A program made the position numbers and the translations under genes. 29,190 bases of DNA, from the IMG/VR virus record IMGVR_UViG_3300027734_000245, positions 1 to 29,190 of that record; one strand, given 5' to 3'. The notes beneath the pieces are model-generated. The model was not told where the DNA came from and searched no databases. It was given only the letters and a program-made list of their open reading frames with translations. Below are positions 3,794-29,190 of the stretch, in pieces; within the stretch, counting starts at the first letter, position 1; every line of letters starts with the position of its first letter. Source of the stretch: a virus.

Positions 3794-6700
3794 TGTATTC
3801 AAAGCGGCAGGTGATTTTATTGGTGGTGTTGTCAATGGTGTTGTAAATGCTGTTGTAGGTGTTGTCAAGGCAGTTGTTGGTGTAGTGGCCAGTGTGGTCA
3901 GTATGGTTATACAGCCATTCATGGGTCTCATGGGAGGCATGCCTGATATTGGCAATGCACAAGAAGCAGAACGGCAACAAGGTGTGCTGGTGCAACAGAA
4001 TGGTGGCGGTGCTGTGGCTATTCCTGTTGTGTATGGTTTTCGCAAAATGGCAGGTGTCACAACTTTTGCAGAAACAGGATCTACCAACAACAAATATCTC
4101 TGGGTGGTGTATACATTCTGCGAAGGTCCTGTTAATGGACTTAGAGAAGTGTATCTCAATGATGAAAGTTTACCTGCCACAATGATTGCTTCATTGAATG
4201 CAGGCACACAAGTAGATATCACCGAAGGCAAGTTCAAAGGTCGTGTGAGTATGCTGTGGTCACCAGGTGTGTATTTTGCATCACCTGCTTCAAGCACACT
4301 AGGCACAACTCTTAAAAATGGCTTGTTCAAAGATGCACCAAGTTTCAAATCAACCATGACACACAACGGCCTTGCTGCCTTGTTTGTGCGTTATGAATGG
4401 TTGGAGATCAAAACACAAGCAGATGCAGATTCAAATCCATTCTCAGGTTCAATACCTTCCATGCAAGTGGTCATGCAAGGTCGTAGAATCGCCAGTCTTG
4501 AAACTTCAACCAGTGAGAGTTATGAATATGGTGCTGCCGGTTACACCGAACGCTACTCAACCAACCCTGCTGAGATCTTGTTGGATTACCTACGTAATCC
4601 AAGATATGGCAAAGGCCTAACAAACTCAGAAATTGACTGGGCCACCTGGCGTGTGGCTGCTGCCAAATGTAATACCACTGTGACCTATGCCGGCACCACT
4701 GTGAATGGTCCTATCTTGACCAGTAACTATGTGTTGGACACAGGTTATAGTATTTTTCAAAACGTAAAATTGCTGTTGCAAGGTTTCCGTGCCTACATGC
4801 CTTATGTGCAGGGCAAGTATAAACTCAAGATTGAAGATGCAGGACACCCAACCAATATTCTTTCTGGTGCGGCAACCATTGTGGCTGAATGCACCAGTGA
4901 TTATCAGATACGTAACTCAAGCATATTGGACAACCAATATGATATCATGGGTGATGTAACCTACACAGGTATTGAGCGAAGTGCCAAATACAATGTTGTG
5001 GTAGTGACCTATGTTGAACCCAGTTCTAAATGGGCCAACAACCAAGTGGTATATCCTGCAACAGAAGCAGAACGCCAAACATATATTGCTATTGATGGCG
5101 GCAGAGAAAACAAACTTGAAGTCACATTCAGCACCATTACCAATCAGGCCATGGCTTGGGATTTTGCAAGACTATTGTTCAACAAGAGTCGCAATCAAGA
5201 GTCATGCAGTCTCAAAGTATCTAGTTCAGCATTTGAACTAGAGCCAGGTGATAATATTCGTATTCAAAGTCAAATATTGAACTTTGGTGACACACCTTGG
5301 CGTGTGGTCAATATTGGATACAATGATGATTACACATTTGATCTTGGTTGTATCCGCAATCCAGACAGTTTGTATCCTTACACCAAAGTAGGTGAGCCTG
5401 ATGTGGTGTTGCCTATCTATGTGCCAAAGGGTGCAACAATTTATTATCCTGTGGAAGTTGATGCATTACCACTTGGTCTTGTGCCTCCGGCTACCATTCC
5501 GTTTACAGGTGGCGGAACTACTTTGAATCCTGCACCAAACAATCCCAATGCTGGCACAGATGCAGGTGGTATTGGTGGCACAGGCAGTAGCACCAACATC
5601 AATGGAACCAACAACACACCACCTGGCTCACCCAAACCGGTGCCCTTGGATGATGTGATTGATATCACCAATGTAGAATACATTACCAAAAACAGCCTGA
5701 TCTATGCACGATTGACTGTGAAACAACCGGCTCACAGCATGTATGCAGGTGTGAATGTATACTTTGCACTCAACGGCAATAAACTAGGCTATTCAGCCAT
5801 AGAAGACCGTCAAAAACCCGGCGCAGGAGGCACATTTTACCTGGAAGTAGGTCCTCTTGCAGTGGTGTCTAGCCTGCAGGCCACGTTCAATCAATACGTG
5901 GCTTATTTCCGAGTGGTCTACATCACAGGTGAATACAGCACACGATTCTTTAACACAACCCTTAATCCAGCAACCAATGAAGCCGCTGCCACCAATCCAA
6001 GTGAACTGATTCAAATTGCATCTAGTTCATGGCCCAACTTGATCATTGCACAAGCCGGTGCAAGAGATAACAAAGTTGATATCATCCGTTTTGTTGTGCC
6101 TGTTCCAAGTTCAGGCAGTCAAACAAACCCTAGAACAGGTTCATTCCAGTTCAGTCAAGATATCCGAACTCAACCATATAACCTTGATGTCACAGGCATG
6201 AACATCTATGCCAAGAGTGATGCAGAAACCTACTGGACCAAGACCAGTTATGCATTTGCAAACTACTCACCAGGAACTGAATATAGTATCCCTTACACCG
6301 GTTATCTTGGAGTGCTGGGCACTGGTATAAATGGTTCAGTAATTACACCTGGTGGCGGTGCAATTTATACATTTGTTTTTAGACTTACCTATAAAGATGG
6401 CACTGAGTCTACCAACCAATATGTAGCAACTGGTAAAGTTCAATCACCTGGATATGCAGCCAGTGCCACAGGTGTGAATATTTTCTACGGCACAGGTGTT
6501 GCTTCAGATCCTGCTGTGCCCACAACAGGACACATGAATGTGAATGCCATGACAGTGACTGAACCACCAGCAGGTTCAGTTGCCAACTCATTGAACACAC
6601 AAACCATCATGAATGCTGTGATTGTTTCAACCAGCACTGGTGGTATCAAGTTTGGTATGTTAGCACCTGATGCTGCCAATCGTAACACATGGCAAGGTAT

Positions 6701-10473: not shown

Positions 10474-10953
10474 GTGGACCAAGAAGAATTCAAATCACGA
10501 CTTCGAGAAGTTGCTGTTCTCAAACAAGTCAAAATAGCCAGAGACCCACAAGGCAGTCGCCTGGTGGATGCTGATGCACCCACTGAGTTTGTGATTGACC
10601 ATACTCTCCCCGAAACTAGACCCTGTGCCTACTGTGATCGATCATGCACCACATGTATGAATCATGTGTTTATGCTGGACAAACAACAATACCGGCGAGC
10701 CTGGGTCACACAGTGTGATACTTGTAAAAAAAAGGTAGACTTGAAGAATGGGTGCTTGATTAACCCATCTGGTGCAGGTGTCAACTACATCTCTCGAGGC
10801 CTACGAACAGCCAAGCCTGGCAATCGATTAGGACGTCCAAGAAAAGACTTTTGGAATGAACCTGTGCAGATCTTCACAGAAGAACAAGCACGTGAAATGA
10901 GCCTGAAACAAGCAGGCATCCTGGATCGATTGAGTGAACTGCGTAATAAATAA
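10474..10953 (+). CDS. Zinc-finger protein with AT-hook-like motif
   Basis: I choose GTG at 10474 because AAGGAG sits five bases upstream; the frame stays open to an ATG at 10390, but that lies inside the previous gene with no site. This gives 159 residues. Seen: CAYC at about residue 49, then CTTC, and CDTC about 30 residues further on, together a likely zinc-binding arrangement, and near the C-terminus RLGRPRKDF, which has the GRP core of an AT-hook, a minor-groove DNA-binding motif. It could be a nucleic-acid-binding regulator or head-associated protein. I do not recognise the family. The stop codon overlaps a TAAATA element. Confidence 0.6.
   Translation: MDQEEFKSRLREVAVLKQVKIARDPQGSRLVDADAPTEFVIDHTLPETRPCAYCDRSCTTCMNHVFMLDKQQYRRAWVTQCDTCKKKVDLKNGCLINPSGAGVNYISRGLRTAKPGNRLGRPRKDFWNEPVQIFTEEQAREMSLKQAGILDRLSELRNK
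10946..10953 (+). promoter_or_regulatory. T4-type late promoter candidate
   Basis: ATAAATAA overlapping the upstream stop codon. A start site some six bases downstream would place the RNA 5' end right at the foot of the structured leader that begins at 10957. Confidence 0.5.
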
Positions 10954-10956
10954 TTG

Positions 10957-11024
10957 TGCAAAGCCGGATGTCTACCGACACCTCATATATGGATTCTACG
11001 GCCATTGAATCCACCGGCTTTGCA
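10957..11024 (+). ncRNA. Three-way-junction structured RNA / 5' leader
   Basis: Closing stem: TGCAAAGCCGG at 10957-10967 pairs perfectly with CCGGCTTTGCA at 11014-11024 (11 bp). Inside are two hairpins: TGTC-TACC-GACA (10969-10980) and TGGATTC/GAATCCA (10990-10996 with 11007-11013, loop of ten bases containing the palindrome GGCC). The second hairpin abuts the closing stem with no gap, so the two could stack. Nine unpaired bases join the hairpins. No T-run follows, so it is not a terminator. It lies between a late-type promoter and the methyltransferase start, so it is either a 5' regulatory leader or a small RNA. Confidence 0.7.
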
Positions 11025-11032
11025 TCCCCCAT

Positions 11033-11584
11033 ATGAATATTGAAACTCTAGCCAGTGCCTGGAAAGGGCACAGATCATTTGCACAATGGCTGGTGCATGA
11101 ACTCCAACCCCGAGTCACTGTGGATCTTGGTGTAGATACTGGATACTCAACATTCTGCTGGGCTGAACACAATCCTGGTCATGTGTATGGCATAGACTCA
11201 TTTGAGGGAGATGCTCATGCTGGATTCCGAAACACCCGCGATCAAGTCACACATGATCAACAGCAACTGGGCTTGACCAATATCACCTGGATCCAAGGTT
11301 GGTTTGATGCGGTGGCCAAATCCTGGACCCTGCCCATTGATATCTTGCACATTGATGGCCTGCACACATATTCAGCAGTGAGTGAAGACTACGCCAACTG
11401 GCATGGTCATGTGCGTGATTCGGGTGTGATCCTGTTTCACGACACTCAGGCCTTCCCAGAAATTGGCCAATTCTTCCAAGAATTACCTGGTTTCAAGCAT
11501 GAATTCTTGCACTCAGCAGGGCTAGGTATTGTTGTAAAAAACCCACAGATTTACCATATGATTGTTGACTTCAAATCCATTTAA
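11033..11584 (+). CDS. Class I SAM-dependent methyltransferase
   Basis: A 183-residue protein with a Rossmann-type methyltransferase core of the Methyltransf_24 kind. Motif I is VDLGVDTGYST (residues 30-40), the SAM-binding loop. The acidic end of strand 2 is GHVYGIDSFEGD, the central motif IDILHIDGLHTY is typical of this family, and SGVILFHDT is the following strand. It would transfer a methyl group to a small molecule or sugar, or to a protein or nucleic acid; the sequence does not say which. The start has no clear Shine-Dalgarno and lies nine bases after the structured leader, so translation may be controlled by that fold. Confidence 0.78.
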   Translation: MNIETLASAWKGHRSFAQWLVHELQPRVTVDLGVDTGYSTFCWAEHNPGHVYGIDSFEGDAHAGFRNTRDQVTHDQQQLGLTNITWIQGWFDAVAKSWTLPIDILHIDGLHTYSAVSEDYANWHGHVRDSGVILFHDTQAFPEIGQFFQELPGFKHEFLHSAGLGIVVKNPQIYHMIVDFKSI

Positions 11585-11593
11585 TGCTACAAT
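11565..11593 (+). promoter_or_regulatory. Sigma70-type promoter
   Basis: TTGACT at 11565-11570 and TACAAT at 11588-11593, spaced exactly 17 bases. Starts within the end of the methyltransferase gene and points to the two tiny genes at 11636 and 11788. A small inverted repeat, GTAG-six bases-CTAC (about 11604-11617), lies just after the expected start and could be an operator. It is the only good sigma70 promoter I found. Confidence 0.7.
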
Positions 11594-11635
11594 AAGAGCA
11601 TGGTAGTATATCCTACTATTTGATTCGGAGTCAAA

Positions 11636-11806
11636 ATGTCAAGTATAGATCAAAGTCGTGCATACCTTGCACTTAGAGAACAGATCACACAAGTTAGGCG
11701 TGAATTCGGAGAAGATACTGCCTGGCACATTGTGGAACAGGCCGTGGTGGCCAATATTGCATTGGCAATGAAATCACAGGAGGCTGTATGTTCCGAGTCA
11801 TCATAA
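11636..11806 (+). CDS. Small hypothetical protein (56 aa)
   Basis: Starts MSSIDQSRAYLALREQI and ends SSIDs-like in SESS. ATG is preceded by CGGAG at good spacing and lies about 40 bases downstream of the strong sigma70 promoter. It is mostly helical by eye (REQITQVRREFGEDTAWHI, then VVANIALAM), with no motif I recognise. Its last 19 bases overlap the next gene, whose ribosome site AGGAGG is inside this one, so the two are probably translationally coupled. Position right after the only sigma70 promoter suggests early or constitutive expression. Confidence 0.6.
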   Translation: MSSIDQSRAYLALREQITQVRREFGEDTAWHIVEQAVVANIALAMKSQEAVCSESS

Positions 11807-11970
11807 TCATCACATTACTTGCACTCACAGGTTGCACAACCTATCAAGGTTATCCTGCACTGATTGCCTTGCCCTCAGGCACACCAGGCGTGACAGGTTC
11901 GCCAACAGGTGTAAACATATATTCTGGCACAGTAAACGGACGAGGATTCTCTGCTGTGGTGCCTAGGTAA
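11788..11970 (+). CDS. Small lipoprotein (lipobox LTGC)
   Basis: A 60-residue protein with a classic type II signal: MFRV, a run of Ile/Leu (residues 4-13) and the lipobox L13-T14-G15-C16. After cleavage a 45-residue Gly/Ser/Pro-containing peptide would be lipid-anchored, facing the periplasm of a Gram-negative host. It has a strong AGGAGG site. Candidates are an outer-membrane spanin subunit (Rz1-like) or a superinfection or surface-exclusion lipoprotein; no inner-membrane partner with the usual overlapping arrangement is present, so the spanin reading is weak. Co-transcribed with 11636-11806. Confidence 0.65.
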   Translation: MFRVIIIITLLALTGCTTYQGYPALIALPSGTPGVTGSPTGVNIYSGTVNGRGFSAVVPR

Positions 11971-11974
11971 CGGC

Positions 11975-11981
11975 ATAAATA
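11975..11981 (+). promoter_or_regulatory. T4-type late promoter candidate for the small RNA
   Basis: ATAAATA five bases after the lipoprotein stop. The expected start is about 11987, precisely where the first stem of the downstream RNA begins. Confidence 0.5.
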
Positions 11982-11985
11982 TTAT

Positions 11986-12163
11986 TGTCCTAAGGGGTTA
12001 CAGCCATTACCTCCTACCTAATTGACTTCTTCGCGGTTGTCAGGACACATGTTGTTGATGCCATTTGTTCTTAGACTCCGAAATCTAAATCCTTATAATC
12101 AACAACACCGAATGCAATGTTCGGACCCTGAGCCCAGTAACTGACCTTACTGGGCTTTTTTTT
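11986..12163 (+). ncRNA. Probable small structured RNA of about 178 nt ending in an intrinsic terminator
   Basis: This gene-free stretch holds, in order: TGTCCT (11986-11991) paired to AGGACA (12042-12047), enclosing GGGGT/ACCTC (11994-11998 with 12009-12013); TGTTGTTGAT paired perfectly with ATCAACAACA (12050-12059 with 12098-12107), enclosing TTAGA/TCTAA (12071-12075 with 12084-12088); CCGAA/TTCGG (12108-12112 with 12120-12124); then the terminator hairpin. Nearly every base is accounted for by a plausible stem. A late-type promoter abuts the 5' end. It could also be the 3' UTR of the lipoprotein mRNA. No known RNA family recognised. Confidence 0.6.
12131..12163 (+). terminator. Strong rho-independent terminator
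   Basis: Perfect 10-bp stem AGCCCAGTAA/TTACTGGGCT with loop CTGACC, followed by eight T (12156-12163). It ends the transcript of the lipoprotein genes and the small RNA. Confidence 0.93.
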
Positions 12164-12169
12164 GACCTC

Positions 12170-12198
12170 GTTTTGAGCCCCAAAACCATAGGTTTTTT
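12170..12198 (+). promoter_or_regulatory. Two mutually exclusive hairpins before the 12271 gene
   Basis: GTTTTG (12170-12175) pairs with CAAAAC (12181-12186), or AAAACC (12182-12187) pairs with GGTTTT (12191-12196), the latter followed by more T. The shared arm allows only one at a time, as in attenuators. A second weak terminator, or an operator, are alternatives. Confidence 0.4.
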
Positions 12199-12211
12199 AT
12201 GCATAATCATA

Positions 12212-12217
12212 TATACT
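12212..12217 (+). promoter_or_regulatory. Possible -10 box (TATACT)
   Basis: TATACT in an AT-rich stretch (12199-12220) upstream of two closely spaced ribosome sites. No convincing -35 at 16-18 bases. A promoter is expected here because a strong terminator lies just upstream. Confidence 0.35.
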
Positions 12218-12245
12218 ATTACATCGGAGTCGCAAGGAGAACAAA

Positions 12246-12287
12246 ATGGCAATTTATATAAGGAAACAACATGAACTATACCACTGA
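12246..12287 (+). CDS. 13-residue leader peptide candidate
   Basis: MAIYIRKQHELYH followed by TGA. AAGGAG lies seven bases upstream, a better site than that of the following gene, whose AAGGAA site and ATG are inside this reading frame. Stop falls 15 bases after the next start, so ribosomes could couple translation of the two. Could be chance. Confidence 0.35.
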   Translation: MAIYIRKQHELYH

Positions 12288-13032
12288 AGAAATACTGAGC
12301 ATGGTTGCAAATGCTAGACAAAAGCAATCATTTGACCTCGAGGCGCGAGAAGTAATAGATCTCGCGCGGCGCGAGAAGCATGTAAACATTAAAACATATA
12401 AACATATTTCTCGCGAACATGATCGCGAAGAAAGTGATGGAACTAGTCCTTCGGACTCAATTGGCCCTGCTTCGCAGAAGAGCCCAGAGGGCTTGGAGGA
12501 GATTGTCATCACGCCCAGCGATAACGTTAGTTCTCGCGCCTACACAGGTATTGAAGCATATCATGTGATCAGTAGCAAAGGCATCAAACTAAACCTCACA
12601 CTACAAACACCTGCAGATGCTGAACTAGGTGCTGTGGTAAAACTCACAGGCGAACTCAAAAGACAAAAGCGTTGGAGAGAGATCAAACCCTATGCAGGTG
12701 ATGCAGAATACTTTCAATCCTTTGTGCAAGAGATCAAAGATCAACTGCAAACAGATCGTCCTGTAGGACATGAATGGTGTATGGGTAGAGTTCACACAAG
12801 AGGCAAACGCAATGCTTGGTTTGCCAATGTGGTTGTGCTGGCAAGAATACAAGATAACAAGATCACACAAGCAAAGATCTGTATTGAAGATGATATCTAT
12901 GAAATTGATCTTGATCTAGATCTAAATGAAAACCAAAAGAAATATTATTCTGCAGGCGGAAGATATGGGGTTATTCGAAGTGCAAAGAGTGTGCCTACAC
13001 TGGCCACAGCCGCAAGAGTTTTATACAAGTGA
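12271..13032 (+). CDS. Unknown 253-residue protein with hairpin-encoded N-terminal region
   Basis: Not recognised. Residues 1-22 are helical; about 23-90 are charged, Arg/Glu/Ser-rich and probably disordered, encoded by the CGCG-rich hairpin array; from about residue 92 the protein becomes ordered (YTGIEAYHVISSKGIKLNL; GAVVKLTGELKRQKRWREI; WFANVVVLARI; EIDLDLDLNENQ) with a strand pattern that could be an OB-like nucleic-acid fold, though this is a guess. Codon use in the first third (many GCG, CGC, TCG) differs from neighbours, pointing to an inserted segment. It follows a terminator and a probable promoter, so it heads its own unit. As the largest unplaced gene, it is the best candidate for a replication or regulatory function. 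Confidence 0.7.
   Translation: MNYTTEEILSMVANARQKQSFDLEAREVIDLARREKHVNIKTYKHISREHDREESDGTSPSDSIGPASQKSPEGLEEIVITPSDNVSSRAYTGIEAYHVISSKGIKLNLTLQTPADAELGAVVKLTGELKRQKRWREIKPYAGDAEYFQSFVQEIKDQLQTDRPVGHEWCMGRVHTRGKRNAWFANVVVLARIQDNKITQAKICIEDDIYEIDLDLDLNENQKKYYSAGGRYGVIRSAKSVPTLATAARVLYK
12336..12540 (+). repeat. CGCG-rich hairpin array inside the 12271 gene
   Basis: A direct repeat GGCGCGAGAAG occurs at 12342-12352 and 12368-12378, with its inverse TTCTCGCGCC at 12531-12540. Hairpins: GCGCGAGA/TCTCGCGC (12343-12350 with 12360-12367); TCTCGCG/CGCGAGA (12360-12366 with 12370-12376); a 10-bp stem with one bulge (12407-12416 with 12423-12433); and three tandem triloop hairpins, AGTCC-TTC-GGACT (12445-12457), CTGC-TTC-GCAG (12467-12477), AGCCC-AGA-GGGCT (12481-12493). 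The palindrome CCTCGAGG is at 12336-12343. CGCG is much rarer in the rest of the window. Confidence 0.8.
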
Positions 13033-28521: not shown

Positions 28522-28688
28522 AAGGAGATCCTGATCTGTTGTTTGCTTATAAACTAGCAAAAGATCTGGGTCTCCTGGTAGAACAAGTGATGGATATGTC
28601 GGTGGCTGAGTTTGTGGGATGGGGAGCCTTCTACAAGATCGAAGCCGAAGAAACTAAAAAAGCCATGGACAAGGCAAGGAGAAAATAG
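28174..28688 (+). CDS. Tail assembly chaperone GT, -1 frameshift product (171 aa)
   Basis: At 28512-28518 the heptamer A AAA AAC is in register with the G frame, right before the G stop. A -1 slip continues through LKGDPDLLFAYKLAKDLGLL, then VEQVMDMSVAEFVGWGAFYK to a TAG at 28686-28688. The extension has the gpT-like form (helices with EF.GW.AFYK). The total is 115 plus 56 residues. The tape-measure start GTG overlaps its stop. Confidence 0.85.
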
Positions 28689-29190
28689 TGGCAACTGAAA
28701 CAACCACCATAAAAGTCGTAGCCGACACAAGAGATGCAGAGCGTGCCATCAGCGGATTGACTACCGCCATAGCCGCACTGGGTGGACTAAGTTTTGCCAC
28801 TGGCATAGCCGCGCAATTTATTACCTTGGCCAATTCAGCCGCAGAGATGACCAACAAGTTGATCTTTGCCACTGGAGGCATTGCCAATGCTGATGCTGCC
28901 TTGAGTATTCTAGGTGCCAGTGCGGCAAGAACAGGCAGTGACCTAGGCGGCACAGTTGACCTATTCCAAAAACTGGCACAGAGTTCAACCTTTGCAGGAT
29001 CCAGCACTGAGAGCTTGGCCTACATCACAGAACAGTTCAACAAGACACTGCAAATCTCTGGTGCATCAGGTGCAGGTGCTGCCAGTGCCTTGTATCAGTT
29101 TGCACAAGCCATGCAAAAGGGCACCTTGAACGGTGACGAAATGCGAACCATCATGGAAACCAACGGTTACCTGATGAAAGTTCTGGAAGA
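28688..29190 (+). CDS. Tail tape-measure protein, N-terminal part (3' end cut by window)
   Basis: GTG start with AAGGAG six bases upstream, overlapping the GT stop by one base. The visible 167 residues begin with VATETTTIKVVADTRDAERA, a tape-measure N-terminal opening, then QFITLANSAAEMTNKLIFAT, and end with TLNGDEMRTIMETNGYLMK. That last segment is the first half of the conserved tape-measure domain whose second half opens the window at base 1. Confidence 0.9.
   Translation, partial: MATETTTIKVVADTRDAERAISGLTTAIAALGGLSFATGIAAQFITLANSAAEMTNKLIFATGGIANADAALSILGASAARTGSDLGGTVDLFQKLAQSSTFAGSSTESLAYITEQFNKTLQISGASGAGAASALYQFAQAMQKGTLNGDEMRTIMETNGYLMKVLE

Follow-up and report, generated by a model that had tools for sequence, protein, structure and literature searches.

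Structure and genomic setting of the RNA

A compact structured RNA lies directly in front of a methyltransferase gene in an uncultivated phage, which raises the question of whether it is a leader of that gene, possibly a riboswitch for SAM or a related ligand as the initial annotation suggested, or an element of its own. The window analysed here, the whole 29,190-nt stretch of IMG/VR record IMGVR_UViG_3300027734_000245, is a 29-kb siphovirus-like record with terminase, portal, capsid, tail and tape-measure genes. Its large terminase is of the phrog_2 type, and the nearest named phages for this protein are DSL-LC06 and Pelagibacter phages. The record looks circularly permuted, because the tape-measure frame appears to cross both record ends (positions 1-2121 and 28540-29190).

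The RNA, termed ncRNA1 (10957-11024, + strand, 68 nt), is a three-way junction. Its closing stem P1 (10957-10967/11014-11024) consists of 11 perfect pairs and encloses two hairpins: P2 (10969-10980, pairs 10969-10972/10977-10980, UGUC-UACC-GACA), with 4 bp and the loop UACC, and P3 (10990-11013, pairs 10990-10996/11007-11013), with 7 bp and the family loop UACGGCCAUU at 10997-11006. P3 adjoins P1 with zero unpaired bases between them. The 11-bp perfect stem, the two inner hairpins with one stacked on it, and the lack of a T-run behind the junction had all been described in the initial annotation and were recovered here. An ordinary terminator was rejected as the identity of the window copy, since no T-run follows the stem. 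The minimum free energy of ncRNA1 is -28.4 kcal/mol, compared with a mean of -13.0 (sd 2.65) for dinucleotide shuffles, none of which folded as stably (0/200, z = -5.8). The junction is a real fold; chance folding is ruled out by this z-score together with the covariation described below. No Rfam family reached its gathering score anywhere in the window, and the Rfam models, those of c4 antisense RNA and phi29 pRNA included, likewise matched none of the 25 loci that were scanned. An in-frame 22-codon ORF (10968-11036, + strand) begins inside the junction and runs into the ATG of the methyltransferase (overlap ATGA), a possible translational coupling in this phage only.

Upstream of the RNA, an ATAAATA box (10946-10952, + strand), a candidate T4-late-type promoter, overlaps the stop codon of a zinc-ribbon gene (10474-10953, + strand). 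In T4-type late promoters the first transcribed base is placed 6 nt after the last A of the box. Because ATAAATA ends at 10952, the transcript is predicted to start at 10958, the second base of the stem, in agreement with the late-type start proposed earlier. The window contains 11 TAAATA boxes on the + strand and a single one on the - strand; many of these boxes stand shortly before gene starts. A PHROGs scan of the early ORFs found no gp55-like sigma factor. The zinc-ribbon gene, recognizable by its CxxC pairs, matched no Pfam family above the cut-off; its own HMM finds homologues, it precedes the RNA in relatives, and it was used as the synteny anchor.

Occurrence in related phages

Relatives were fetched by TerL or a tail gene, and later freshwater and marine sets by pattern scans, of which the matches were kept only with promoter and stem and the remainder was read as chance. 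The merged sets comprise 47 records with 41 distinct members. Their common layout is the zinc-ribbon gene, TAAATA (usually with the zinc-ribbon stop codon inside the box), a stem at the expected start, a hairpin with the loop UANNGCCAUU and usually an intrinsic terminator. All 33 distinct regions downstream of the zinc-ribbon gene, a count that takes in only loci with a detected zinc-ribbon ORF, have TAAATA; TANNGCCATT is present in 29 and GCCAT in the other 4. Many of these regions had been fetched by RNA patterns, and the cleaner figure comes from the 12 first reached via the neighbouring tail gene, a query that contained no RNA sequence (TAAATA in 12/12, the full loop in 9/12 and GCCAT in 12/12). 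A descriptor scan of terminase-linked loci for TAAATA, a stem and an abutting hairpin revealed four further loci (L016, L020, L022 and L052) with GCCATT in the loop, most other listed matches being AT-rich noise. Of the 99 occurrences of TANNGCCATT, 8 sit on a closing stem of 5 bp or more, compared with 7 of 897 for 40 permuted motifs.

The key relative is L008, whose terminase is 83% identical to that of the window. It has a zinc-ribbon homologue (31%) followed by the same AATAAATAATTG and by a three-way junction whose stem letters differ from those of the window (GTAATCCGGG/CCCGGATTAC). Because a perfect intrinsic terminator follows, without a methyltransferase, the RNA in L008 looks like a unit of its own. 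A covariance model trained on 15 freshwater members (R1) scored the window copy at 13.0 bits (E = 1.3, rank 2), which is not above noise, did not recognise the L008 copy, and found no convincing new member beyond its training members or their near copies. The link of the window copy to the family rests on synteny, promoter, loop and architecture. The pattern TAAATAATTG...TGTCTAC was also tried in viral contigs and rejected; among its 31 stretches, real folds were seen only in the near-copy of the window and in L008.

Bacterial genomes searched with the neighbouring tail gene yielded none, and DNA searches of named phages with the RNA regions of the relatives yielded no match. With the window region as query, the only match among named phages was distant and partial (query 161-313), downstream of the RNA. 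The partial records of pelagiphages HTVC111P and HTVC112P and of a Vibrio phage showed no combination of TAAATA, stem and GCCAT. A literature search covering part of the published work found no description of such an RNA, and the portions consulted of PMC10611076 and PMC12197685 contain none. ncRNA1 is a member of an apparently undescribed small-RNA family in many uncultivated lake and sea phages, which seem to transcribe it at a late stage of infection, and on these comparisons the existence of a stand-alone RNA family can be considered highly probable.

In freshwater relatives, a long stretch without a 60-aa ORF, conserved by eye, was observed after the RNA terminator (L033, about 4730-5295; L122, about 5170-5900; and similar places). 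It begins with GACAGGCA and in L033 precedes a SegE-type GIY-YIG endonuclease. No believable Rfam match was found in the L122 stretch at E up to 1, where only a sub-threshold sR5 appeared on the minus strand. In DSL-LC06 (L147), a 756-nt gap without annotated CDS (572-1328) ends near a terminator and shares GGGGTTAAAACACGACCC with L126; it had no Rfam match at E up to 1.

Compensatory changes in the helices

Pairing was examined by an alignment-free swap test, in which the 5' stem strand of each member was paired with its own or with other members' 3' regions. The 41 members contain 20 distinct P1 stems, for which the mean score was 24.2 with own strands and 11.6 with swapped ones (0/10,000 permutations reached the observed value); the own strand was best in 18 of the 20. 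For the 27 distinct P3 stems, 4.56 of 5 pairs formed with own strands and 2.39 with swapped ones (0/10,000). An alignment not fitted to the structure (20 freshwater members, 17 distinct rows) gave a covariation score of 0.377, compared with 0.124 after shuffling (0/500) and at most 0.090 in slid controls, and both sides change in 6 of 7 P3 pairs. Single-sequence shuffles of P1 by itself were weaker, the stem score being matched in up to 16 of 60 shuffles (33 regions), so that the claim for P1 rests on the comparison among members. The stems vary in sequence with pairing kept, as expected from compensatory changes in helices, and the changes that the initial annotation had proposed to look for in related phages were found in both P1 and P3. 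Sequence comparison supports the family together with its structure, synteny, covariation and terminators.

The same pairing might be kept for DNA, as in a cruciform or a replication or packaging site, and the position of an inverted repeat inside an intergenic gap would suit such an element. However, all 17 distinct freshwater rows retain a G-U pair within P1. Since G-U pairs in RNA and not in DNA, this speaks for RNA and against a DNA cruciform. The upstream promoter and the downstream terminator, both on one strand, also argue against a DNA-level element, which we regard as extremely improbable.

Relation to the methyltransferase gene

The methyltransferase gene (11033-11584, + strand; Methyltransf_24, Pfam E = 2.7e-19) occupies the place taken by the terminator in relatives and is absent from the syntenic L008. 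Its ATG at 11033 lies nine bases past the end of the stem with no Shine–Dalgarno sequence ahead of it, exactly as first noted. This arrangement and the ATGA overlap are what a cis-acting leader of the methyltransferase would offer, acting either as a SAM/SAH riboswitch or by translation control via the overlapping 22-codon ORF. A similar order is seen in phage DSL-LC06, where TAAATA and an 8-bp stem are followed after 14 nt by a methyltransferase CDS. We treat this as a weak parallel, because the enzyme is not clearly homologous (E = 0.018) and the RNA lacks GCCAT; no zinc-ribbon homologue was found there either. Against a leader, 40 of the 41 distinct members have the stem without a methyltransferase gene after it, the window copy being the single exception. 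An ORF of at least 60 aa starting within 40 nt past P1 was found in 3 of 41 members (the window methyltransferase, L127 and L134), and we judge those of L127 and L134 to be spurious because their start sits at the terminator. Homologues of the enzyme were found only in a near-identical record and in three contigs at 43% identity; in the one of these contigs that was inspected (L002), the RNA does not stand in front of the gene.

Rfam SAM riboswitch families gave no match at the gathering score, nor did they in a scan of 10900-12300 at E up to 1, where the sole Rfam match was a sub-threshold SdsR at the terminator of the second RNA copy described below. A SAM riboswitch was rejected, given no Rfam support and no linkage to SAM-related genes in relatives, and a methyltransferase leader of either kind is very unlikely. 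Of the original reading, the structured RNA at a late-type start with compensatory changes in homologues stands, and the leader or riboswitch role with SAM or a related ligand is not supported. The methyltransferase looks like a passenger beside ncRNA1 and not like the thing controlled by it. In the window, the terminator was probably replaced by this gene, and ncRNA1 may now also form the 5' end of its message. A single genome with a moved-in neighbouring gene can mislead toward a leader or riboswitch reading.

Transcript ends and the stand-alone unit

P1 begins 4-6 nt past TAAATA in 28 of the 33 regions, the place expected for the first base in T4-type geometry (a TATAAATA-like box with transcription beginning about 6 nt after it). 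A strict terminator, defined as a perfect hairpin followed by a T-run, was found in 29 of the 41 distinct members, the window copy having none; some members failing the strict test show imperfect terminators by eye. With TAAATA in every one of the 33 regions and these terminators behind most members, other than the window copy, the family appears to have a promoter and a terminator of its own. From these positions we infer promoter use and transcript ends as follows. ncRNA1 would be a late noncoding RNA that stands alone, about 70 nt long here and 75-110 nt in most relatives, transcribed from a T4-type late promoter with its first transcribed base already paired in P1, and in most relatives an intrinsic terminator would end it.

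In HK022, put is a structured element at the 5' end of its transcript, and ncRNA1 could likewise promote antitermination in cis from the 5' end of late messages. It is structured, begins at the predicted first base and, in the members with a strict terminator, has that terminator close behind. However, several TAAATA boxes of the window have no such RNA, and a ribosome site and gene come directly after them; moreover, RNA and terminator often form a unit with no gene of at least 60 aa within 100 nt. Antitermination is accordingly a reading to which we give very little credence.

The conserved loop and the second copy

The conserved working face of ncRNA1 is probably the apical loop UANNGCCAUU. 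Its GCCAU complements AUGGC, with which 11 of the 39 listed window genes begin, and the loop, complementary to AAUGGC start regions, might act in trans at translation starts. The complement of the full loop, AATGGCATTA, was matched 19 times across 17 of 19 marine records; a second match was found only in two of them (G010 and G018), and the single match of most records we interpret as the RNA locus. A phage target complementary to the complete loop was not seen among the marine records, and in freshwater the run AATGGCARTA showed scattered extra sites. RNAduplex energies of the ncRNA1 loop with window start regions reached -12.6, barely better than the 1% level of random segments (-12.3). Loop variants were inconsistent with a downstream AUGGC start (L138 fits, L137 and L145 do not). 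The missing full-loop target, the unremarkable duplex energies and the loop variants that do not track the next gene are points against a trans mechanism. Loop-loop dimerization via GGCC was rejected, the palindrome being present only in the window (L001) and L052 among the loops listed.

The window holds a second, permuted copy, ncRNA2. Behind a TAAATA box (11976-11981, + strand), its core (11987-12046, + strand) has P1 GUCCU/AGGAC, beginning at the expected transcript start, a 5' hairpin with the loop UACAGCCAUU (11999-12008) and a 3' hairpin; the core is conserved in L008, where P1 is GUCCC/GGGAC. An intrinsic terminator follows (12130-12163, + strand). The ncRNA2 tail contains GACTCCGA (12074-12081, + strand), which is complementary to TCGGAGTC in the leaders of the flanking genes (11625-11632 and 12224-12231). 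TCGGAGTC has 3 matches in the window, compared with 0.18 expected (0/100 shuffles reached 3), and the sites at 11625 and 12224, just before the flanking gene starts, are the only such sites in the window. L008 keeps the ncRNA2 antisense and one of the two leader sites. The enrichment of TCGGAGTC hints at pairing in trans, in which ncRNA2 would use GACUCCGA, complementary to the Shine–Dalgarno leaders of both flanking genes.

The main rival to trans-pairing is a protein-binding role, in which a protein of the phage or of its host (a coat or packaging protein, RNA polymerase or an RNA-binding regulator) would bind the invariant loop, with the RNA serving as scaffold or decoy. A loop that is almost invariant on a freely changing stem, both RNA ends closed in P1 and the lack of a seen full-loop target would all fit such a role. 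No candidate protein was identified, however, and the over-represented Shine–Dalgarno antisense of ncRNA2 would be needless in a pure protein binder; we consider protein binding rather unlikely. A late RNA acting in trans at translation starts, with the targets that we infer for it, is a tentative proposal, plausible and still somewhat doubtful. Taken as a whole, the best explanation, and a reasonably probable one, is a stand-alone late RNA with its loop acting in trans at translation starts. A bolder version is a widespread new family of riboregulators, sometimes with two copies per genome, in which the exposed GCCAU loop is a general antisense to AUGGC starts and ncRNA2 is also an antisense to Shine–Dalgarno leaders. 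This is speculative and improbable; if true, such riboregulators would reprogram translation in aquatic bacteria during the late phase of infection.

Comparison with known systems

The apparently undescribed family occupies a fixed genome place in abundant uncultivated freshwater and marine phages of about 30 kb, behind apparent T4-type late promoters, and its near-invariant loop on freely varying stems makes the function directly testable. GOLLD and ROOL RNAs have been reported from lake and phage-associated DNA, but those are large, whereas the family here measures about 70-110 nt and has no Rfam match. SAM/SAH riboswitches are likewise multi-helix RNAs before a SAM-using enzyme; they differ in that no family match was found here and the RNA of relatives is not tied to methyltransferases.

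In the c4 antisense RNA of phages P1 and P7, loops of a small structured RNA pair with a ribosome-binding site (PMC12197685). The RNA here is also a small structured RNA encoded by a phage, and a c4-like action would be its proposed mechanism; it differs in having no Rfam match and in being equipped with an apparent T4-type promoter and a terminator of its own instead of being cut from a leader.

Like put of HK022, ncRNA1 is a structured RNA at a transcript 5' end, but in most members here a terminator of its own comes next, and no gene. The pRNA of phi29, which serves a late step of that phage, has a three-way junction, and its ends are paired. ncRNA1 has no Rfam match and other loops, and belongs to a phage with a phrog_2-type large terminase, but it shares with phi29 pRNA both the three-way junction and the paired ends.
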